From a virus, in IMG/VR virus record IMGVR_UViG_3300017772_000134, positions 1-23,688 of that record: a stretch of 23,688 nucleotides of DNA. The stretch is one strand, 5' to 3'. Both the position numbers and the translations under genes were made by a program. Positions within the stretch are counted from its first letter, which is position 1; every line of letters starts with the position of its first letter. Of the stretch, positions 5,142 to 22,603 are shown in pieces. The notes under the pieces are model-generated. The model was not told where the DNA came from. It did not search any database and worked only from the letters and a program-made list of their open reading frames with translations.

Positions 5142-5732
5142 ATGGCTAGTTTATTTGACACACTACAATCGCAAGCATTCAGGGCTGGGGTAACACCAAG
5201 GACTGCAGAGGCGACAAAATGGTTTCAGCGAAATGTTAAAAAACTTGCTGATCCTAATCCTAGGAGTTTGCTTAAGGATACTGCATTAGAACCAACAACT
5301 AAACCACGTGTTGGCGATATGATGATGTATTTTTATGACCCTAAGCATAAGAAAACGCTACCATACTATGATAGATTTCCTCTATCGATTATGGTAGAAC
5401 CTGCTAAGGGTGGATTCTATGGACTGAATCTGCACTATCTTTCACCCGGTGTGAGGGCTAGATTTCTTGATGCAATGATGGATTTAGCACCTAAGACTAT
5501 GAATGATACAACGCGATTACAGAAATTAAGATATAAGACTATTATTGGTGCTAAGAAATATAAAGAATTTGCACCATGTTTTAAGCATTATTTAATGGAC
5601 CATGTTAAGTCACGTATAGTAAGAGTACCTATGACTGAATGGCCTATTGCAATATTCCTACCGACTGAACAATTCAAAGGCGTTAAGGCTGAATCGGTAT
5701 GGAGATACTCAAGGAAACAATACGCATCATGA
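5142..5732 (+). CDS. Conserved phage protein of unknown function
   Basis: The product has 196 residues and no domain I can name with confidence. It has a distinctive central stretch, MMYFYDPKHKKTLPYYDRFP followed by SIMVEPAKGGFYGLNLHYL, which I associate with a conserved protein next to gene 4 in marine T4-like phages. It is basic and aromatic, with no signal peptide or membrane segment. It lies between gp4 and a gp54-like tube protein, so a virion assembly or structural role is likely but not shown. The start is close behind the gp4 stop; the nearest purine-rich site (AAAGGA, 5120-5125) is unusually far upstream. Its TGA overlaps the next ATG (ATGA). Confidence 0.85.
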   Translation: MASLFDTLQSQAFRAGVTPRTAEATKWFQRNVKKLADPNPRSLLKDTALEPTTKPRVGDMMMYFYDPKHKKTLPYYDRFPLSIMVEPAKGGFYGLNLHYLSPGVRARFLDAMMDLAPKTMNDTTRLQKLRYKTIIGAKKYKEFAPCFKHYLMDHVKSRIVRVPMTEWPIAIFLPTEQFKGVKAESVWRYSRKQYAS

Positions 5733-6394
5733 ACAGTATAGACGATTTAAAATCAACTATTGCAAAGAAAGGCGGTCTTGCTATGCAAAACCGTTTTCAA
5801 ATATTCTTTACACCGCCAACTGCGAATAGTGTTAAGAATCTAATGAATCAGAGTATCAAAAGTTTAATTGGAGACCTTGCAAAGAACGCATTACAAGGCG
5901 CACCTGCTAAAAACCTTTTACCAGATCCAAGAGACGTCGCAATATTATGTGAAGCGGTAAGTTTTCCTGGTAGACAAATTACCACTATTGACTATATTGC
6001 AGATAGGCAAGGCATTAAAGTTCCATATTCAGTTATCAATGAAGACATTAGTATGACATTCCTTCTTACTAATGACTATTACATTAAGAGAATGTTTGAC
6101 ACTTGGACCTCAGGCATTTTTGATATGGAAAAATATAGAGCAGGATATAAAAAAGATTTTGTAACGGACATTGTTATACAACAACTTAATCAAGACAATG
6201 TTCCGGTATATAGCGTTAAGTTGGAGAATGCATTTCCCACAACAGTTAGCGCAATTAATTTGGACAACAATAGTGAGAACACTGTCCAAAAACTAACAGT
6301 GACTATGAGTTACGAAAACTTTGTACCAGAAGATATTGTGGATAGTACTAAGTCTATCAAAGACACAATAATTGATGGTATATTTGGCGATTAA
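5729..6394 (+). CDS. Tail tube-like baseplate protein, gp54-like
   Basis: The 221-residue protein has the layout of T4 gp54, the baseplate tail-tube initiator. An N-terminal region (MNSIDDLKSTIAKKGGLAMQ, then NRFQIFF) is followed by the tube fold: a strand with SFPGRQITTIDYIADRQG, then ISMTFLLTNDYYIKRMFDTW and the late strands VYSVKLENAFPTTVSAI and KLTVTMSYENFVPE. T4 gp54 has the same 'first strand - helix with W - last strand' pattern. The start is the ATG at 5729 inside the preceding stop (ATGA); the frame is open to 5699 but that would overlap the upstream gene more. It could also be labelled a generic tail tube protein (gp19 family). Confidence 0.7.
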   Translation: MNSIDDLKSTIAKKGGLAMQNRFQIFFTPPTANSVKNLMNQSIKSLIGDLAKNALQGAPAKNLLPDPRDVAILCEAVSFPGRQITTIDYIADRQGIKVPYSVINEDISMTFLLTNDYYIKRMFDTWTSGIFDMEKYRAGYKKDFVTDIVIQQLNQDNVPVYSVKLENAFPTTVSAINLDNNSENTVQKLTVTMSYENFVPEDIVDSTKSIKDTIIDGIFGD

Positions 6395-6422: not shown

Positions 6423-7124
6423 ATGGCTTTACCCAAGATTAATGTCCCATCGTATGACGTAAAATTACCGTCAACAGGGGAAACATTAAAGATGAGACCT
6501 TATTTAGTAAAAGAAGAAAAGGTCTTAATGATTGCATTGGAATCCAGTGACCCTGGACAAATTGCAGAAGCAGTAAGGAATGTGATTAGTTCATGTTATT
6601 CATTGGATAACGTTGAATCACTAACCACATTTGATATAGAATATTTATTTTTGCAACTCAGAGGAAAATCTGTAGGCGAGGATATGGAATTACAACTTAA
6701 ATGTGAGCATTGCGAAGCGCTCAATCCGGTTGTAATTAATGTTGGAGATATTGAGGTAACAAATATTTCTGATAATAATATTGTTATGGTTACTGATGAT
6801 GTAGGTCTTAAAATGACTTGGCCATCAGTTAAAACATTTGGTGCAATTGATATTGAGAAACTAAACTCTGTTGAGGGTTTAATGGATCTTATAGTCGAAT
6901 GCGTTGATAGTATATTTGACAATGATGAGGTATATTCGAAGAATGATATGTCTAAAGAAGAATTGGTTGACTTTATTGATAATCTTAATTCAGCTCAATT
7001 TAAAAAGGTGCAAGGATTCTTCCAAGATATACCGGCTGTAGAACATAATGTTAAATTAAAATGTGTTAGTTGTGGTGAGGATAATAATATTGAGCTAAGA
7101 GGTCTGCAAAGTTTTTTTTCATAG
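6423..7124 (+). CDS. 26: Baseplate hub assembly protein gp26 family
   Basis: The 233-residue protein matches the T4-type gp26 baseplate hub family: N-terminal MALPKINVPSYDVKLPSTGE, then KMRPYLVKEEKVLMIALES and IEYLFLQLRGKSVGE. Two CxxC pairs, Cys94-Cys97 (CEHC) and Cys214-Cys217 (CVSC), could bind one zinc. A strong AGGAGA site precedes the ATG. The last codons read AGT TTT TTT TCA TAG, which places a T TTT TTT slippery heptamer (7112-7118) in the right phase for -1 frameshifting into a conserved downstream frame (see the extension entry). The protein would then be made in a short form (233 residues) and a long form (294 residues), like tail assembly chaperones in many phages. Confidence 0.88.
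   Translation: MALPKINVPSYDVKLPSTGETLKMRPYLVKEEKVLMIALESSDPGQIAEAVRNVISSCYSLDNVESLTTFDIEYLFLQLRGKSVGEDMELQLKCEHCEALNPVVINVGDIEVTNISDNNIVMVTDDVGLKMTWPSVKTFGAIDIEKLNSVEGLMDLIVECVDSIFDNDEVYSKNDMSKEELVDFIDNLNSAQFKKVQGFFQDIPAVEHNVKLKCVSCGEDNNIELRGLQSFFS
7112..7118 (+). promoter_or_regulatory. Slippery heptamer T TTT TTT for -1 frameshift
   Basis: Within gene 26 the codons run AGT TTT TTT TCA TAG, giving X XXY YYZ = T TTT TTT in the correct phase. A -1 slip reads TTC ATA GGC CTT next and enters a frame open to 7306. Nine bases downstream CTTTC (7127-7131) and GAGAG (7136-7140) can pair with one G-U, around a GCAT loop, as a weak possible stimulator. Confidence 0.65.
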
Positions 7125-7306
7125 GCCTTTCGCATGAGAGCTTGACCAATTATTATAAGACTAACTTCGCATTAATGCAACATCACAAGTACAGCTTGAC
7201 AGAATTGGAAAATATGTTACCGTGGGAAAGGCAAATATATGTTGCTTTATTACAACAATATATTGAAGATGAAAATCAAAAAATGAAACAAAGGACAAAA
7301 CGATGA
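7118..7306 (+). CDS. Frameshift extension of gp26 (gp51-like position)
   Basis: After a -1 shift at 7112-7118 the frame stays open for 62 more codons to TGA at 7304-7306. The encoded tail includes GLSHESLTNYYKTNFALMQH and HKYSLTELENMLPWERQIYV. I recognise this pattern from a short protein beside gp26 in marine T4-like phages, where it is sometimes labelled gp51. The conserved part begins before the first ATG in this frame (7175), which argues for frameshifted translation rather than separate initiation; the alternative is a short protein starting at ATG 7175. 'PWERQIYVALL' resembles the C-terminal part of frameshifted tail chaperones in other phages. The stop overlaps the next start (ATGA at 7303). 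Confidence 0.7.
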   Translation, partial: FIGLSHESLTNYYKTNFALMQHHKYSLTELENMLPWERQIYVALLQQYIEDENQKMKQRTKR

Positions 7307-7632
7307 CCGACGAAGTTAAAGAATTAAAAAAAGAACATCCCGCTGATACTAATGGCGATGGTAAAGTATCAGATGAAGAACATGCAATGTATCTTGAATT
7401 TAAGCGCAAAGAGCTTGATGACGCTGATGCAATGCGAGACGCTCAACGCAAAATGACATGGTTCGCATTAGGCGGATTATTGTTATATCCATTTGCTGTT
7501 GTCCTTGCGTCACTAGTTGGATTAGACCAAGCCCAAGGAACATTAGGTGATATGGCACCAACATATTTTGTTGCTGTTGCCGGTATTGTTGCTGCTTTCT
7601 TTGGTACTCAAAACTTTGGCAATAAAAAATAA
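7303..7632 (+). CDS. Two-helix membrane protein with an EF-hand loop
   Basis: The product has 109 residues. Residues 15-26 (DTNGDGKVSDEE) form a complete 12-residue EF-hand calcium loop with Asp1, Asn3, Asp5, Ser9 and Glu12 all in place. A charged helix follows, then two membrane segments at about 53-73 (WFALGGLLLYPFAVVLASLVG is 21 residues, so given here by position with WFALGG at its start) and 86-102 (TYFVAVAGIVAAFFG). The C-terminus is short. It overlaps the gp26 extension by four bases and is followed by the tape-measure gene, so it is expressed with tail genes. I recall similar proteins of unknown role in marine T4-like phages. Calcium binding is inferred from the motif only; there is a single hand, where most EF-hand proteins have pairs. 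Confidence 0.85.
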   Translation: MTDEVKELKKEHPADTNGDGKVSDEEHAMYLEFKRKELDDADAMRDAQRKMTWFALGGLLLYPFAVVLASLVGLDQAQGTLGDMAPTYFVAVAGIVAAFFGTQNFGNKK

Positions 7633-7644
7633 AGGTAGACACTC

Positions 7645-9543
7645 ATGGCAGAACAAAATTTTAGCGAACTAGTTGAACTAATGAAGGAAAACAATCGCGC
7701 CACTGGCGAGATTGAGGCTGATGGTAGAAATACACGACGTCATTTATTAGAAATGAAAGGTTTGCAGACTTCTGCTGTTGAGACTAATAAAAACCTATCC
7801 ACTATGTTTGAAAACTTTTTTGAGAATCAAAATCAAAGTAGTTTATCAACAGCTGAAAAAGATATGGAAAGAATGTCCATATTTGAAGAAATAAGAGACC
7901 AATTAAGAGATGGTATTAATACCACCGATACAAGTAAAGATGGTAAAGGCGGTGGTGCAATGCTTAGTAAGCTTGGTGGAATGATGGGCGGTGCTGCTAT
8001 GGCAGCGGGTGCATTACTTGCGGGTGTAGGTATAGGTGCAGCTGGTTTGACATATGCTATGAAAGAGTTTGAGGATATGGACACTAAAAAGATCAGGGAA
8101 AATGTTGATGATCTATTGTCCATGGCAGAATCTGATAGAATGACAGTTAAGAATGTCGGTGCTGTTGCTCTTACTATGACCGCTTTAGGTGTTGGCTTAG
8201 CTGCTTTCTCATTAGGTGAAGGTGCAGCAAAAGCAGTAGCTAAATTTGAATCCGATGCAGATTGGACGGGTGCGATTAAGGATAATGTTGATGGTCTTTT
8301 AAGTATTTCCGATCTTGAAAATATGAACCCTAAGGCAGTTGCTGGAGTAGGCCTAACTTTAGGAGCATTAGGTCTTGGTCTTGCAGCATTTGGTGTTGGT
8401 AAAGCTGCTGATGGTGTTGGTGAAGCTATTAGTAAATTCTCTAGTGGCGATAACTTTGCTAAAGGCATTAAGGATGAAGTAGAAACACTACTTTCAATTA
8501 AGACTGAAGGCTTTGGTAAAACCGCTGGATTAGTTGGAACACTTGGTGGTTTAGGTTTAGGTCTAGCTGCATTTGCTGTTGGTAAGGCTGGTTCAGGCGT
8601 TGCTGATGGTTTAACAAAATTCACAACAGGTACTAACTTTGCTGATGATATTAAAAGTGAAGTTGAAACATTATTGTCTATTAATACCGGTGAAGATGGT
8701 CAGGTTGGAGACTTTGTTGGTACAATGGGAGCACTGGCTGCAGGTCTTGTCGCATTTGCAATAGGTAAGGGTGCAAATAGTACTGCAGATGCTATTGATA
8801 AATTTACTGAAGGTGACTTTGCTGAAACTATTGCTCAACAAGTTGATACATTATTAATGATTGGTGATAATGCTAGTGCTGAAAGAACATTAGCTGCAAC
8901 CGGTACTCTAACAGCGCTTGGTGCTGGATTGGCTGCATTTGCAGCAGGTAAAGGATTAAATACCCTTGCTGATTTAGGAGCAAGTATTGTTGGATTCTTT
9001 ACAGGTAGTAAATCCCCAGTAGAACAAGCTATTGAAGTTGGTGAAAAGGCTGATCAAATCGAAAAAGGCGCAATTGCATTTGAAAAATTCCTAGATGTAT
9101 TCCAAAAGTTTGCTAATATGTCTACTGAGATTAAACTTGATACAAATATTGATGAAGCTATTGAGCAACTCGATGAACATACCAGAGTATTAGATACAAT
9201 CGTAACTGGTGGTAAATTAACAAGAGGGTTTAATTTCGAAACAGATGGATTAGCTAATCTCACTGATGACGTTGATAAAGCTGTAAGTAATATCAATAGA
9301 ATAAGAGATGTATTAATGCTCCAATCTGGTGGTGGTCAAATGGCATCAACAGATGACAAAGAAGGTAATAAGATCATTACTCTTTCAGCTGAAAATATTG
9401 AATTAAGATTACCTGAAATCTCTACGCCTGGAAGTACTCTTGCTGTAGCTGATAATAGTAGTAGAAATACTAATACCACAACTATTGTACAAACGAGTCC
9501 AAACAATAGAGTAAGTGATACATTAAATAATGCTTACGGGTAG
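7645..9543 (+). CDS. Putative tail tape-measure / hub protein (gp29-like)
   Basis: The 632-residue protein is Ala/Gly-rich and helical. Residues 1-95 are charged helix (ELVELMKENNRATGEIEADG). Residues 105-140 are a Gly/Ala-rich hydrophobic segment. Five imperfect repeats of about 60 residues span about 150-452; each has a helix ending in DDLLSM or ETLLSI, then a hydrophobic helix with GLAAF.VGK. Residues 455-560 look like coiled coil, and the C-terminal 70 residues are polar and Asn/Thr-rich. Length, hydrophobic repeats and location after gp26 fit a tape-measure protein; T4 gp29 (590 residues) sets tail length and belongs to the hub. No sequence motif proves it. AAAGG precedes the ATG, 12 bases after the previous stop. 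Confidence 0.7.
   Translation: MAEQNFSELVELMKENNRATGEIEADGRNTRRHLLEMKGLQTSAVETNKNLSTMFENFFENQNQSSLSTAEKDMERMSIFEEIRDQLRDGINTTDTSKDGKGGGAMLSKLGGMMGGAAMAAGALLAGVGIGAAGLTYAMKEFEDMDTKKIRENVDDLLSMAESDRMTVKNVGAVALTMTALGVGLAAFSLGEGAAKAVAKFESDADWTGAIKDNVDGLLSISDLENMNPKAVAGVGLTLGALGLGLAAFGVGKAADGVGEAISKFSSGDNFAKGIKDEVETLLSIKTEGFGKTAGLVGTLGGLGLGLAAFAVGKAGSGVADGLTKFTTGTNFADDIKSEVETLLSINTGEDGQVGDFVGTMGALAAGLVAFAIGKGANSTADAIDKFTEGDFAETIAQQVDTLLMIGDNASAERTLAATGTLTALGAGLAAFAAGKGLNTLADLGASIVGFFTGSKSPVEQAIEVGEKADQIEKGAIAFEKFLDVFQKFANMSTEIKLDTNIDEAIEQLDEHTRVLDTIVTGGKLTRGFNFETDGLANLTDDVDKAVSNINRIRDVLMLQSGGGQMASTDDKEGNKIITLSAENIELRLPEISTPGSTLAVADNSSRNTNTTTIVQTSPNNRVSDTLNNAYG
8092..9000 (+). repeat. Five tandem ~60-codon repeats in the tape-measure gene
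   Basis: Five units run head to tail at residues about 150-207, 208-271, 272-332, 333-392 and 393-452. Each has the frame 'I..(N/E)V(D/E).LLS' then a hydrophobic stretch 'G.GLAAF..GK' and ends near a Phe (KFSSGDNF, KFTTGTNF, KFTEGDF). They are clear in protein but diverged in DNA, so the duplication is old. Confidence 0.8.
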
Positions 9544-16794: not shown

Positions 16795-18633
16795 TTATAA
16801 CGAATAAATTTTAATCAGTTCTTCCTTCCCTTTCACTGTTATATCACCTATCGGTCGCGGTTTAGCAATGGTAACTCTATCTGCTGTGAAGCTTGAAATG
16901 ATTGTCGGGCAATTAATATAATCTCCCCTTGCTGCTTTTGCTTCAAGTCTTGCTGCAAGGTTAACTGCATCTCCGATGACTGAATAGTCAAACCTTGATT
17001 CGCTTCCCATATTCCCCACAATGCAATCGCCGGTATTAATGCCAGTGCCGACATTAATGTCCGGAAGTCCTCGCTCTTTATAAATTTCTTTAAGTTCATT
17101 TGTTTTGGCCTCTATTTCTATTGCTGATTTTACTGCCATATCGGCATGATTTTCGCAGGGTAAAGGCGCATTCCAAAACGCCATAATACAGTCACCCATA
17201 TATTTGTCAATTGTACCACCATTTCTTAGTATAATTTTCGTCATTTCATCCAAAAATTCATTAACTAATTCCACCAATCCTTCTGGATCGTCATTGTTTT
17301 TATAATGTTCAGATATTGGAGTAAACCCACATATGTCCATAAAGAGGAATGTCATCTCTTTTCTTTCACCACCAAGCTTTAAGAGTGATGGATCTTTTTG
17401 AAGCATGTATACCATATCAGGAGACAAATATGTTCCAAACTGTTTCTTAATTTGTTGTCTTAATACAAACTGCTTATAAAAATTATTGAAAGATCCTGAT
17501 GCGAAGACAAGTATATATATTATCAGAGGATAACTTATATCGAGGAGTATTTGAGATTCGTACCAGAAGTAGAAAGCGCCGCCAACTGAAGTACCAACGG
17601 TCGCAACAAAAGCCAACAAAGAAGCCCATAGAGGAAAGTAATAAATTGAAACAATTATCAAAAGAGATCCAATTAGAATTACCGCTATTTCAGCAAGATC
17701 AGCCCATATCGGACGAGATATCGAGTCTCCTGACATTATCGTCTCAAGAGCTGCAGCTTGGAGATGATGTGCGGGTCGTAGACCTGAAGGAGTTGGAATC
17801 TGTGCAGCTAAACCTTTGGCCGTTAGACCAATCAAAACAGTCGAGCCTTGAAGATCCGGTAGTGACTCATTGGACACGTACTCTATTTCCTTAAACTCAT
17901 AGTTCGGATTAATCCAAATAGAACCATTAGCGTCTGTTGATATTCTATGAGGTCTTAATATAACTTCTTCAATTCCAATATCGTTTACCTTTATGGTATA
18001 AGAAGGCTTTTCACTTAATACACGAGTTGTCTCTAAAGCGAATGATGGATATAACTCATTATTGATTTGAGATATAAGAGGTATACGTCTTACTAATCCA
18101 TCTACTTCTGGCATTGCATTAATAAGACCATGTCCCCAAGCTCCAGTTTCTATTTCAGGAATATTTGTCACTAAACCATTATATCTTATTACCCAATCTA
18201 GTGGATTACCTGTCCCAAAAATGGCAGTTCCAACATAAGGCGCAGAAGTGCTTTTTCCATCTTGATCAGCATCCTGTGCTAATATAATACCATTGTTTTT
18301 TACCCAAGAAGCAAATATTTCATCACCGCCGAATCTGTCAGCCTCTGGAAACATAATAGTAAAGCCTATAAGCCCCGCGTTCGCACCTCTGAGATCACTT
18401 ATCATTTGTGCATAAGTTGTTCTCGGAAAGGGATATTGTCCCATCACGCTGAGTGAATCTTCTCCAAGGTTCAATAGGGTAACCCTGGTGGATTCACGCA
18501 GAGTGTTAGTCTTAATATAGGTATCGAAGGTATTTAGCCTTAATTGTTCTACTAAAGCAGGATCAGCAATCCTAACACTTATGAGTAAGGCTGCTATGAA
18601 TATTGTTGTCCAAATAGAAGTTATATACTTCAC
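16795..18633 (-). CDS. CHASE2-domain membrane adenylate cyclase
   Basis: The 612-residue product makes cAMP from ATP if active. Numbering from the GTG at 18633: a membrane helix at about 5-21, an extracytoplasmic CHASE2 sensor at about 25-305 (LNTFDTYIK, YPFPRTTYAQMISDL, GLIGFTIMFPEAD, PEVDGLVRRIPL), three membrane helices at about 314-381, then a class III cyclase domain. Both metal Asp are present (Asp433 in FLFMDICGFT; Asp481 in DKYMGD), as are the adenine-selecting Lys477 and Asp549 (RFDYSVIGDAVN) and transition-state Asn558 and Arg562 (NLAARLE). Lys/Asp indicates ATP, not GTP. GTG is chosen since it overlaps the curlin stop (GTGA) and starts at the helix; an ATG at 18675 is the alternative. 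It ends the curli-like operon. Confidence 0.93.
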   Translation of the reverse strand: MKYITSIWTTIFIAALLISVRIADPALVEQLRLNTFDTYIKTNTLRESTRVTLLNLGEDSLSVMGQYPFPRTTYAQMISDLRGANAGLIGFTIMFPEADRFGGDEIFASWVKNNGIILAQDADQDGKSTSAPYVGTAIFGTGNPLDWVIRYNGLVTNIPEIETGAWGHGLINAMPEVDGLVRRIPLISQINNELYPSFALETTRVLSEKPSYTIKVNDIGIEEVILRPHRISTDANGSIWINPNYEFKEIEYVSNESLPDLQGSTVLIGLTAKGLAAQIPTPSGLRPAHHLQAAALETIMSGDSISRPIWADLAEIAVILIGSLLIIVSIYYFPLWASLLAFVATVGTSVGGAFYFWYESQILLDISYPLIIYILVFASGSFNNFYKQFVLRQQIKKQFGTYLSPDMVYMLQKDPSLLKLGGERKEMTFLFMDICGFTPISEHYKNNDDPEGLVELVNEFLDEMTKIILRNGGTIDKYMGDCIMAFWNAPLPCENHADMAVKSAIEIEAKTNELKEIYKERGLPDINVGTGINTGDCIVGNMGSESRFDYSVIGDAVNLAARLEAKAARGDYINCPTIISSFTADRVTIAKPRPIGDITVKGKEELIKIYSL

Positions 18634-19334
18634 TCTTGAGTTACCGTCACAGCACAACCTCCTACAGTTACGCAATATTGGGTTATACTATATCCTTGTG
18701 TTGTTGTCCCTAATTGTTTTAAGTCGATGTCTGTTCCATACAATCCATCTAAAGTAATACTAGCTGTATGAGTTGCGCCATTACCATGTTGTCTTACAAA
18801 TACTTCATTTTCATCATTATATATTGTTAAGTCTAAAGTTTTTTCTCCATCACTTTGCTGTTTAAATATTACTTCATTATCGTCACCAGCTAAATGTAGA
18901 TTAAATTCATGACCATCAGTGGATCCCTGGTTAGTTTGGGAACCAGCCATGTGATTGTAATCGCCATATAAAATTATATTCATTTCATGACCACCACCTT
19001 CGTATCCATCATAATTCCAATCTAAATTAGTTTCTGAAGATGGATCATCCCAAGCAACTCCTTGTCCTAATTTTATTTTATTATTAGAACCACTTACTTC
19101 GTCAAATATAATTTTATTAATACCACTAGTTTGATTATATTGTACTAGATACATTGACAAATTTGGAGCTGTAATATATGAATTACTATCCTTCATTTGT
19201 ATTCGATTATTATATCCAATTTGATCTATACCCAACGCTAGGTTGTCCCCAGATTGTTCTAAAGAGATTTGATTGTCGTCTTGGGCTAGTGAAAAACCCG
19301 AAAATAAAAATAAGCCTAATATTAAATTTTTCAT
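18630..19334 (-). CDS. Curlin-like exported repeat protein 2
   Basis: The 234-residue product has a signal peptide (MKNLILGLFLFSGFSLAQ, cleavage near 18) and then beta repeats with the curlin rhythm of alternating hydrophobics, Gly-x-x-Asn turns and Gln ladders: ISLEQSGDNLALGIDQIGYN, then FDEVSGSNNKIKLGQG, LYGDYNHMAGSQTNQG, LAGDDNEVIFKQQSDG, VFVRQHGNGATHTASI and IDLKQLGTT. It is much longer than E. coli CsgA (151). The first 28 mature residues nearly match those of the other curlin-like protein (20447-21178), and both end with a Cys pair (here YCVTVGGC). Expected to be secreted through CsgG and form amyloid or cap fibres. GAGG precedes the ATG 7 bases after the FecR gene. Confidence 0.82.
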   Translation of the reverse strand: MKNLILGLFLFSGFSLAQDDNQISLEQSGDNLALGIDQIGYNNRIQMKDSNSYITAPNLSMYLVQYNQTSGINKIIFDEVSGSNNKIKLGQGVAWDDPSSETNLDWNYDGYEGGGHEMNIILYGDYNHMAGSQTNQGSTDGHEFNLHLAGDDNEVIFKQQSDGEKTLDLTIYNDENEVFVRQHGNGATHTASITLDGLYGTDIDLKQLGTTTQGYSITQYCVTVGGCAVTVTQE

Positions 19335-19341
19335 AATTACC

Positions 19342-20493
19342 TCAGTTTTGTTGATTAATATAAATGTATATGTCCTCACCATCATTACCATATATATCAC
19401 CGTTCCAAGTTGGTGTATTTGTCGCAAGAGTAAAGCTGCCTCCAGCTCCAAATTTAATTCTTATTAGTCCATTTACATTTCTATATAATACTAAATCCCC
19501 GTCTTGTAAATAAACATTGTATTGTGATTCTTCATTAAATCCTCTTGCAGCACCTTTAATATCAAACTCTCCAAGAGTATCAAATAAGTCGGCTGAATCA
19601 ATTATATCCAATACATCAACTAAATATTCTACATCCAGTTCATCAATATCTAATTCATTAAACTCTAAATCTTCAGTTGTTTCTTCTAATTCGTCTATTT
19701 CTAATTCTTCAAATGCTAAAAAGTCTACATCCAGTAGACCTCTATCTTCATTTCTTTCATCAGCCATTTCTTCTTTTATTTTATCTTCCACTTCTTGTGG
19801 TGGTGATACAATAAACATGTTGTCAATTAAAGCTGGAGTAATACCATTTACTTTTACTGCTTGTGTTGGGCTGCTATCTAAAGAAGAGACCATTGTTGCT
19901 TGATACGCTTGATTAAGAGTTACCTCTCCACCTTCATTTGAAACAACAATTTCGCCAGATGGATTACCTTCGTCATCTGGTAATAAAATTATAAGTGACC
20001 TACCTAACTCATCAACAGTTGTAGTAAAGTCTGTTCCTCTTACAGCAATTGATGCTGTTGGTGTAGTAATATCGATATTAGCTTTATTAACTAATCCCAA
20101 TCTACCTGAAGCAAATCTTGCTGTACCCATTGTAAACTTCATACTCATTTTTGACAATGAAGGATCTGGATCGTAATATATTTCATCAATTAAGACTTCT
20201 GAATGCTCTTTTAACGCTAATTCTGCTTTATCCAAAAACATAATCAGCATTCGTCCATTGCCGGTTCGAGCTTCATCATTTAACTCAATTGATGTATTTG
20301 TTTTGTGTGGTATTTCTATATTGTTCCTAAGAATAGAACCTATACCAGCTGATTCAACAATGTCACCGATAGAGTCCGCTTGGACTCCACCGGCCCAAAT
20401 CAATAAAAGTACTAGATTATTCCTAATCGTCGCCGTTAGACGCGTATTATGAATCGCCTGCAGAATCTTTTTGGTTGATTTGAATTGTTGCAT
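19342..20493 (-). CDS. Exported FecR-domain protein
   Basis: The 383-residue product begins with a polar 22-residue stretch and a signal-like hydrophobic segment (about 26-39, NLVLLLIWAGGVQA). The N-terminal domain (SIGDIVESAGIGSILRNN, RTGNGRMLIMFLDKAELAL) leads to a typical FecR core at about 137-155, ANIDITTPTASIAVRGTDF, followed by strands. Residues about 255-310 are highly acidic (EELEIDELEETTEDLEF). The last 65 residues form strands with Gly-rich turns. FecR domains sense or relay envelope signals, and FecR proteins are often encoded beside CHASE2 cyclases, as here. The start at 20493 overlaps the curlin gene by 47 bases and lacks a clear ribosome site, so it is uncertain. No FecI-type sigma factor is seen. 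Confidence 0.85.
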   Translation of the reverse strand: MQQFKSTKKILQAIHNTRLTATIRNNLVLLLIWAGGVQADSIGDIVESAGIGSILRNNIEIPHKTNTSIELNDEARTGNGRMLIMFLDKAELALKEHSEVLIDEIYYDPDPSLSKMSMKFTMGTARFASGRLGLVNKANIDITTPTASIAVRGTDFTTTVDELGRSLIILLPDDEGNPSGEIVVSNEGGEVTLNQAYQATMVSSLDSSPTQAVKVNGITPALIDNMFIVSPPQEVEDKIKEEMADERNEDRGLLDVDFLAFEELEIDELEETTEDLEFNELDIDELDVEYLVDVLDIIDSADLFDTLGEFDIKGAARGFNEESQYNVYLQDGDLVLYRNVNGLIRIKFGAGGSFTLATNTPTWNGDIYGNDGEDIYIYINQQN

Positions 20494-21178
20494 TGTCAGA
20501 TGTAATATCTAAGTTAATAGTCGAATTAGGACTTGAGCATGCTACGTTATTGCCTACACAAGTACCACTGATTTGATTAATATCAATATCACCAGAATCT
20601 CCATCATATACAACTGTAAGTGATTGAGCTCCATCGTTTTGAAGTGTATTAATATTATTGCCTGAACCTGTAATATCCCAATTCCAAGTAGAATCGTCAG
20701 CTTCAAAGTCAATATCAAATACATTAGAACTACCAACTAATATTAAGTCAGCATCTAATCTTTCTGCACTTGCTGCATAACCTTGATCAATATCAAATGT
20801 ATTTGAATCACCCGTTATGTCAAAATTGTAATCAGAATCGTCTGAACTACCGGTATCTCCGATATTCCAGTCCACCTCATTTGAATCTCCCGTTAAAGAG
20901 AAAGTCAAAGAAGATGAATCCATGACAATAGGGCCATAAATTAAATTTTGATTACCAATCATATCAATGTCAAAAGTCAAACTTGATCCATCGATAGTCA
21001 TATCAGAACCTGAAGATGAAAAATCATCAAGGCCAATTTTGTTACCATATCCCACCTGATCAATATATAATGTCAAAGTGTCACCACTTTGTTCTATCAT
21101 AATTTCATTATCATCTGTGGCTTGTGCAAAAACGAATGATGTCGACAATAGTACTACTATACTAATTAGTTTCTTCAT
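20447..21178 (-). CDS. Curlin-like exported repeat protein 1
   Basis: The 243-residue product has a signal peptide (MKKLISIVVLLSTSFVFAQA) and about eight imperfect repeats of hydrophobic strands with Gly-x-x-Asn turns: IMIEQSGDTLTLYIDQVGYG, FDIDMIGNQNLIYG, FSLTGDSNEVDWNIG, FDITGDSNTFDIDQG, LILVGSSNVFDIDF, WDITGSGNNINTLQNDG, VYDGDSGDIDINQISG and LDITSDNATIQINQ. It is very acidic and Ser/Asp/Asn-rich, more so than E. coli CsgA. A Cys pair (GTCVGNNVAC) precedes the last repeat. Its ATG overlaps the csgG stop (ATGA), so secretion pore and cargo are coupled. I take it as major subunit or nucleator without being able to say which. Confidence 0.82.
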   Translation of the reverse strand: MKKLISIVVLLSTSFVFAQATDDNEIMIEQSGDTLTLYIDQVGYGNKIGLDDFSSSGSDMTIDGSSLTFDIDMIGNQNLIYGPIVMDSSSLTFSLTGDSNEVDWNIGDTGSSDDSDYNFDITGDSNTFDIDQGYAASAERLDADLILVGSSNVFDIDFEADDSTWNWDITGSGNNINTLQNDGAQSLTVVYDGDSGDIDINQISGTCVGNNVACSSPNSTINLDITSDNATIQINQKDSAGDS

Positions 21179-22104
21179 TTTTGTATTTCCTCGTTTGTTG
21201 AGTGCCTATCATTCTTACCATCCATTTGGTGAGGATGACGATGGCCCTCAGTTAAATCCCAGAATTTACGGTCATGACCCTGGTATATTAGTTCCAGCAC
21301 GGCAGCCTCAATAGCTGTTCGTACTGCGTATGTCACTGACTCATTATTACCCACTCCGTCCTCATATTCAACTAGCTCTGTTCCCTGTTCTATGAACCTA
21401 AATACATCGCCACCTGAACCGTAGGATAATACCGATTTCCTACTTTGGACATTCAATAATACTTCACCCGTTAAAACAGAAACTGCTCTTACAGAAACTG
21501 TTACAACGTCTTTACGATATTGTTTACTAAAACCGATTCCTAGATATCTTGCGCCTCGACCTCCAGTTTCGATATTAGAATCATAACCAATAATGCCACC
21601 TTCTATTATCATTCCTGCGAATAAAAGTGGTCCAACTCCCTTTGCCTCAGTTCCCCGGGCTTTAGCTACATCCATTCGAGTAGACCTTACAATTTGTCTC
21701 TCTCTTACTAGATTATCGATTCCTTGTCTTTCAACAACCCTGAACCACGTACCGCCACCGGCTGTCTTCAAAGCATCAATTAACATTTCGGTTCCACCTT
21801 GAGTTACTGCAGTTGAAAAATCTGCAATACCATCACGGGCTTTTCTTTGTCCCGTTTTATCGGTAAAACCATATACAGCAACCACTGGCATTTCTTTAGC
21901 CGGTGGTACGTTTAATAATTCTACATATGCTGGTAGTCTAACTACCTCAGCAACATCAACACAAATATATTTACGCTTTACTTGTTGTGCTAATGTTACA
22001 ACATCTTTTATTTCTGGTGCCGAACAATCCTGTGGATTAGGACTCCACTTTGGCATTGATGAACAACCAGTTAAAAATAGTAACGCTAATAAAATCCTAG
22101 CCAT
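21175..22104 (-). CDS. csgG: Curli secretion pore lipoprotein CsgG
   Basis: The 309-residue product is a CsgG homologue, the nine-subunit outer-membrane channel that exports curli subunits. A lipoprotein signal (MARILLALLFLTGC, Cys14) is followed by conserved segments: PVVAVYGFTDKTGQ, DFSTAVTQGGTEMLIDALK, WFRVVERQGIDNLVRERQI, IIEGGIIGYDSNIETGGRGA, RYLGIG, ISVRAVSVLTGEVLLNV-like strands, GDVFRFIEQG and ESVTYAVRTAIEAAVLELI. All align with E. coli CsgG in order. Residues near the pore constriction differ (KARDGIADFS against E. coli KPYPASNFS). ATG at 22104 is chosen because the lipobox follows directly and it overlaps the csgF stop by 8 bases (ATGGCTAG). Also possible is a longer form from a TTG at 22122. 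Confidence 0.96.
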   Translation of the reverse strand: MARILLALLFLTGCSSMPKWSPNPQDCSAPEIKDVVTLAQQVKRKYICVDVAEVVRLPAYVELLNVPPAKEMPVVAVYGFTDKTGQRKARDGIADFSTAVTQGGTEMLIDALKTAGGGTWFRVVERQGIDNLVRERQIVRSTRMDVAKARGTEAKGVGPLLFAGMIIEGGIIGYDSNIETGGRGARYLGIGFSKQYRKDVVTVSVRAVSVLTGEVLLNVQSRKSVLSYGSGGDVFRFIEQGTELVEYEDGVGNNESVTYAVRTAIEAAVLELIYQGHDRKFWDLTEGHRHPHQMDGKNDRHSTNEEIQK

Positions 22105-22603
22105 TGTCTGGATCCTGTCCAAAATTACCAGACCCTACTGGTATTTCGATTACAGTTTCTGATCCATTTTCATCTGTGATAGTCATTTTAATAAATTCTG
22201 TACCATCAATATTAGTTATTACTTCATATGTAATAATGGACCCTTCTAATGTAAAAGAACCAAACCTTACAGCTGCATCGTTAGAAAACATTGACTCAAC
22301 TAATTGTTTAGCCATTTGAGCATATATTCTACTTTCTAAATTACGAATAAACTTAGCTAAAGTAGTATTTTCTTCAGCTCTTTCAGCAGCCTTTCTTGCA
22401 GCTTCCAAAGCGTCTTCAATAGCTTTTTTTCTACTATGTTCCTGATTCTCAATAGTTAAATAATGAGCACCAGTTCCTATTCCACTAAAAGATGGATTCT
22501 TAAACTTATGTACTATTTCCTGAGAATGAACTATCCCAGCTAATGACATGATAAACATGCATAATACTATATTATTTTTTATTCTCTTCATTTTCATTTT
22601 CAC
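22097..22603 (-). CDS. csgF: Curli assembly factor CsgF
   Basis: The product has 168 residues from the first ATG (164 from the third, at 22591, which is possible). It has a signal peptide (IVLCMFIMSLAGIVHSQ), then the conserved CsgF N-terminus FKNPSFSGIGTGAHYLTIEN, matching E. coli [20 protein letters not shown]; in E. coli this part plugs into CsgG and narrows the channel. A charged helix (HSRKKAIEDALEAARKAAER) longer than in E. coli follows, then the C-terminal beta domain SFTLEGSIITYEVITNIDGT with ETVIEIPVGS. CsgF links the pore to the nucleator outside the cell. Its start lies inside the end of the holin-like gene upstream and its stop overlaps csgG. Confidence 0.92.
   Translation of the reverse strand: MKMKMKRIKNNIVLCMFIMSLAGIVHSQEIVHKFKNPSFSGIGTGAHYLTIENQEHSRKKAIEDALEAARKAAERAEENTTLAKFIRNLESRIYAQMAKQLVESMFSNDAAVRFGSFTLEGSIITYEVITNIDGTEFIKMTITDENGSETVIEIPVGSGNFGQDPDNG

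Follow-up and report, generated by a model that had tools for sequence, protein, structure and literature searches.

Tail assembly chaperone genes of the lambda type combine a short form, a -1 slip at a heptamer, a C-terminal extension that this slip gives access to, and a position after the tail tube gene. Xu, Hendrix and Duda reportedly described the tail chaperone frameshift as conserved in 2004, and Vladimirov, Gautam and Davidson are said to have assigned T4 gp26 and gp51 as tail assembly chaperones in a 2022 article in Virology (566:9-15). The lambda-type features are also set out in the PRFect paper, according to which, with reference to Vladimirov et al. 2022, certain T4-like phages possess a short gene alongside a longer, fused one (PMC10274946). 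A paper on the TAC locus of Pseudomonas phage Adele (Vandenendeviridae/Andersonviridae) describes a conserved poly-T slip motif, GTTTTT, at the end of TAC-N and a tail open in the -1 frame that is usually annotated as a separate gene; the same paper credits Vladimirov et al. 2022 with poly-T slip signals in the TAC-N genes of T4-like phages (PMC12846349).

Here we analyse a stretch of viral DNA of 23,688 nucleotides (IMG/VR record IMGVR_UViG_3300017772_000134; hereafter the window), in which a -1 frameshift is predicted at the end of gene 26. The locus resembles lambda gpG/gpGT in its short form, its heptamer for a -1 slip near the 3' end, its longer form with a C-terminal extension and its place after the tail tube gene; it differs in having a poly-T slippery sequence, a contractile T4-like tail and a putative tape measure gene assigned by position and size, and the two are likened by layout rather than by sequence alignment. 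With the Adele locus it shares the poly-T motif at the end of TAC-N, the -1 tail and the annotation of that tail as a separate gene, although Adele belongs to another phage lineage and the likeness is again one of locus layout.

Results

Reading frames at the end of gene 26

Gene 26 (6423-7124, + strand) starts with the ATG at 6423 and encodes the predicted short form (TAC-N) of 233 aa, which matches PF12322 T4_baseplate (E 1.7e-66; 224.5 bits against a cut-off of 24.5) and phrog_150 (E 4.5e-69) and carries zinc-ribbon-like CxxC pairs. Its 3' end, read directly from the sequence, is CAA AGT TTT TTT TCA TAG (7107-7124), with the slippery heptamer T TTT TTT at 7112-7118 on the + strand, in the phase of the zero frame; among the 7,258 codons of the window genes, this is the single in-phase occurrence of T TTT TTN. 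Reading in the -1 frame meets no stop from 7094 until the TGA at 7304-7306. The predicted post-slip part of this frame (7118-7306, + strand; 62 codons and TGA) reads FIGLSHESLTNYYKTNFALMQHHKYSLTELENMLPWERQIYVALLQQYIEDENQKMKQRTKR and would form the C-terminal domain of a long form (TAC-NC) of 232 + 62 = 294 aa. The in-phase heptamer within AGT TTT TTT TCA TAG, the 62-codon open stretch and the two product lengths had all been proposed in the first-pass annotation, and the reading frames bear them out.

Past the gene 26 stop, the -1 frame encodes a conserved C-terminal extension (alignment A2). This tail matches phrog_634 (E 9.5e-29), labelled 'gp51, baseplate hub assembly catalyst', and is homologous to proteins annotated as gp51. 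Tblastn searches gave matches to gene 26 in 1,294 phage records and to the tail in 588, the best of the latter beginning at the slip. After the slip, the first TTG comes at residue 8 and the first ATG at residue 19; both of these candidate start codons lie behind the start of the conserved tail, in keeping with the early observation that the similarity begins before any ATG. The locus codes the part specific to the long form solely as this 62-residue tail and not within a full gp51 gene of its own, as T4 does.

We consider it highly likely that gene 26 is a tail assembly chaperone gene that gives a short and a long form by -1 frameshifting at T TTT TTT. Most ribosomes would read TTT TTT TCA TAG and stop, yielding the short form of 233 residues; a fraction would move one base back on the heptamer and continue as TTC ATA GGC ... 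through the 62 codons to the long form of 294 residues, with a predicted junction peptide ...LQSFFFIGLSHESL.... The long form would thus comprise the body of the short form and an additional C-terminal domain. If the roles are as in lambda gpG/gpGT, coating of the tape measure protein would fall to the short form and recruitment of tail tube subunits to the additional domain of the long form. The site, its phase, its conservation and the homology of the fusion to gp51 are seen in the sequences, whereas the occurrence of slippage, its rate and the chaperone role are inferred. A real and functional frameshift is very probable.

Conservation of the slippery site

Related loci were gathered by similarity to gp26 or to the tail, the slip site not being a criterion. 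A first set comprised 80 IMG/VR loci (one of which ends before the site), the window and 15 phage records, giving 95 complete sites. A lack of the slippery site in relatives had been named in the first-pass annotation as counting against the proposal; all 95, however, have T TTT TTN in the phase seen in the window, and each has a homologous tail that is read in the -1 frame. The heptamer is TTTTTTC in 73 loci, TTTTTTT in 18, TTTTTTG in 3 and TTTTTTA in 1, and the codon before it ends in T in 95 of 95 (AGT, TCT, GAT, AAT or GGT); in the same genes, TTT accounts for 62% of Phe codons and T-ending codons for 47-76% of those for Ser, Asn, Asp and Gly. For the 55 representatives, that is, the loci of the 95 below 80% identity, the chance of such conservation is log10 P about -24 if they are taken as independent, a figure overstated by shared ancestry.

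A second set of 80 loci was fetched with the tail alone, some of its contigs being common to the first set, and kept the slip site in 79. The one locus without it (L126, 1480-1510) lacks the site because gene 26 is truncated there, being shortened before the tail, through either a deletion or an assembly error. The site occurs in Kyanoviridae, Pootjesviridae, Otagovirus, Menderavirus, Schizotequatrovirus, Cinqassovirus, Ceceduovirus and a Nitratidesulfovibrio phage.

In the Ackermannviridae phages LIMEstone1 and KWBSE43-6 and in Vibrio phage D493 the tail likewise lies in the -1 frame, but a canonical heptamer is lacking, and these phages were not counted as support. Among loci of this kind, L091, L089 and L186 (Ackermannviridae and a Vibrio phage) have a gp26 homologue and then the tail, with GAA/GAG ATT TTC ATT TAA or TCA CTT TTC AAG TAA in place of the canonical heptamer, and in one of them (L186) no ATG, GTG or TTG stands ahead of the -1 frame tail.

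Candidate stimulators around the heptamer

A hairpin directly 3' of the heptamer (7122-7144, + strand; -5.4 kcal/mol) is a possible stimulator. The weak downstream stem reported at first is real as a predicted structure, but it is indeed weak, with z -0.9 against synonymous recoding, and the window's own clade, which is too uniform, yielded no significant covariation signal for it. Across the 55 representatives, the 36 nt after the heptamer have a mean z of -1.46 against synonymous recodings, with 40% below -2 and a control region at -0.37. In cyanophage-type loci (n=60), a 5-bp stem lies 10 nt after the heptamer, and compensatory changes occur in 5 of 5 pairs; 24 compensatory cells were counted versus 10.4 in shuffles and the signal was gone when the partner was slid, although both arms of the stem are coding, so that part of the covariation may reflect the peptide. 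As a separate observation, Synechococcus phage MA01 (L096) has a perfect 10-bp hairpin, AATGATGCAC...GTGCATCATT, 7 nt 3' of the heptamer, and a long hairpin resembling it is present in P-SSM2 (L082).

On the 5' side, a Shine-Dalgarno-like stretch, AAGAGGT (7097-7103, + strand), precedes the heptamer by about 8-9 nt and may act as a further stimulator. An upstream Shine-Dalgarno-like stretch of this kind resembles the dnaX arrangement. At this position, the 55 representatives have an anti-SD pairing of -6.4 kcal/mol versus -5.1 kcal/mol in synonymous recodings, and 50 of 50 control sets fall between -5.7 and -4.7 kcal/mol.

Alternative origins of the -1 frame tail

In public records, the -1 frame is annotated as a separate small gene (gp51), for which translation would restart just past the gene 26 stop. 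Many records carry this annotation, the Ackermannviridae phage LIMEstone1 has an overlapping TAATG, and in 76 of 174 loci, many of them from cyanophages, an ATG stands at residue 3 of this frame, near the stop; a free tail peptide could therefore also be made in those cyanophages. A start codon ahead of the tail segment in relatives had been named at the outset as a possible counter-indication; however, 45 of the 174 loci have no ATG, GTG or TTG in the first 12 post-slip residues, even though the conserved LSHxSL-type segment starts at residue 2-4, and the TTG at residue 8 of the window is already past the start of this segment. Furthermore, a restart leaves the invariant T TTT TTN and the T before it unexplained, and in T4-type gp51 a single chain unites the tail with the gp26-like part. 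We regard an independently initiated gp51 as quite improbable.

RNA polymerase slippage is known at runs of 8 T, and the window has such a run, so that mixed mRNAs might arise by transcriptional slippage instead of a translational slip. Most relatives, however, have just six T, with C, G or A as the next base (73, 3 and 1 of the 95, as above), which is as a rule too short for the polymerase, whereas the ribosomal heptamer rule holds in every one of the 95 loci and, in the cyanophage clade, a covarying RNA hairpin follows; slippage during transcription is accordingly very improbable. Because homopolymer runs are error-prone, a sequencing or assembly error could also have split one in-frame gene, and the first-pass annotation had raised this doubt about the eight T. 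This explanation was rejected, its likelihood being minute: a contig of 76% identity (L001) has the 8-T run and phase as in the window, and about 170 further loci, in contigs and isolate genomes from different projects, keep the same frame relation. A chance occurrence of the site was likewise rejected on the strength of its conservation.

Relation to T4 gp26 and gp51

In profile comparisons, T4-type gp51 aligned with the whole -1 fusion (hhalign probability 99.6, E 2.4e-24) over 241 columns spanning the junction, whereas T4-type gp26 aligned with the short part alone; gp51 and gp26 also aligned with each other (probability 98.2). Since gp51 corresponds to the full fusion and gp26 to its short part, T4-type phages carry two genes, one for the short and one for the long form, in agreement with the statement of the PRFect paper on T4-like phages (PMC10274946). 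T4 gp26 is accordingly homologous to the short form of the window and gp51 to its entire long form, and T4 encodes the equivalent two forms in distinct paralogues, gp26 for the short and gp51 for the long one. The T4-type phages RB18, Aeromonas phage 31, AS-gz and Klebsiella Roth23 differ from the window in that gp26 and gp51 each have a gene, the two lying mostly on opposite strands. A separate full gp51 is present in RB18 and Aeromonas phage 31, and gene 26 of RB18 has no slippery site. Within the Straboviridae, to which RB18 and Aeromonas phage 31 also belong, the slip site is present in Aeh1, AS-zj and PVA23. The occurrence of both modes inside Straboviridae suggests, from their distribution rather than from a tree, a replacement within the family.

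Fold and gene neighbourhood

AlphaFold gave a good model of the short form (pLDDT 86). A Foldseek comparison of this model with solved structures gave no significant match among the 50 listed, of which the HK97 tail assembly chaperone 2OB9 had by far the highest probability (0.80, at E = 1.0). The likeness extends over about 61 aligned columns with an rmsd of 2.8; it is a partial match, and gp26 differs in being about twice as long and in its CxxC pairs. Run with the gp26 profile, a search of the sequences of solved structures gave no match. Gene 26 had initially been called a T4-type baseplate gene; in view of the alignment of gp51 with the fusion and the rank of 2OB9 by Foldseek probability, we favour a tail assembly chaperone over a baseplate part as its reading. 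The comparison with lambda-like chaperones drawn in the first-pass annotation was apt but understated, as gp26 itself seems to be the T4-type chaperone.

The gene directly upstream (5699-6394, + strand) encodes a gp19-like tail tube protein (PF06841, E 4.8e-08; phrog_45 tail tube, E 1.7e-39), a neighbour that fits a chaperone role for gene 26. Downstream, a gene from the list of open reading frames for a small predicted membrane protein of 109 aa (7303-7632, + strand) lies between the chaperone gene and the next long gene, with a 4-nt overlap between its ATG and the TGA of the -1 frame; the PF and phrog profile searches assigned it no family. This protein contains an EF-hand-like loop, DTNGDGKVSDEE (E 0.008). 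The 632-aa gene that follows (7645-9543, + strand) stands in the tape-measure position, and its position and size suggest a tape measure protein; the searched libraries gave no convincing match to a tape-measure relative.

Discussion

Frameshifted chaperones are known from many tailed phages, and the window adds a well-supported further case in a marine T4-like phage. By sequence comparison, the frameshift appears to be conserved across T4-like phages except the T4 type. We lean slightly toward a combined reading in which frameshifting is ancestral for the two T4-like tail chaperones, persists in Kyanoviridae, Pootjesviridae, Schizotequatrovirus, Aeh1-like and related groups, and was lost inside Straboviridae when duplication of the gene gave gp26 and gp51; in this reading the retained site has two stimulators, namely the upstream Shine-Dalgarno-like stretch and the short covarying hairpin. 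Part of this reading may already stand in Vladimirov et al. 2022.

In the records that we inspected, the tail is given as a separate small gene, often from a later ATG, or is absent; it is unannotated in S-CAM1, ACG-2014i, ACG-2014d, S-H9-1 and Aeh1, and none of the inspected record regions joins gene 26 and the tail as one product. The open literature searched contained no published cyanophage frameshift at gene 26. In several hundred phage genomes, the misnamed 'baseplate hub' gene and 'hub assembly catalyst' are probably one gene with two forms made via frameshifting. These phages offer a natural comparison of two routes to one protein pair: most of the sampled T4-like lineages would rely on frameshifting, T4 on a duplicated gene.

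Elsewhere in the window, a curli-like module on the - strand (18630-22603) encodes CsgG (E 3e-52) and CsgF (E 1e-16), together with a protein containing a FecR domain and two others in which curlin repeats are weakly recognised; curli is also treated in a pelagimyophage paper (PMC7029224). Adjoining this module, also on the - strand (16795-18675), is a gene for a protein with CHASE2 and an adenylate/guanylate cyclase catalytic domain, which is unusual in a phage.
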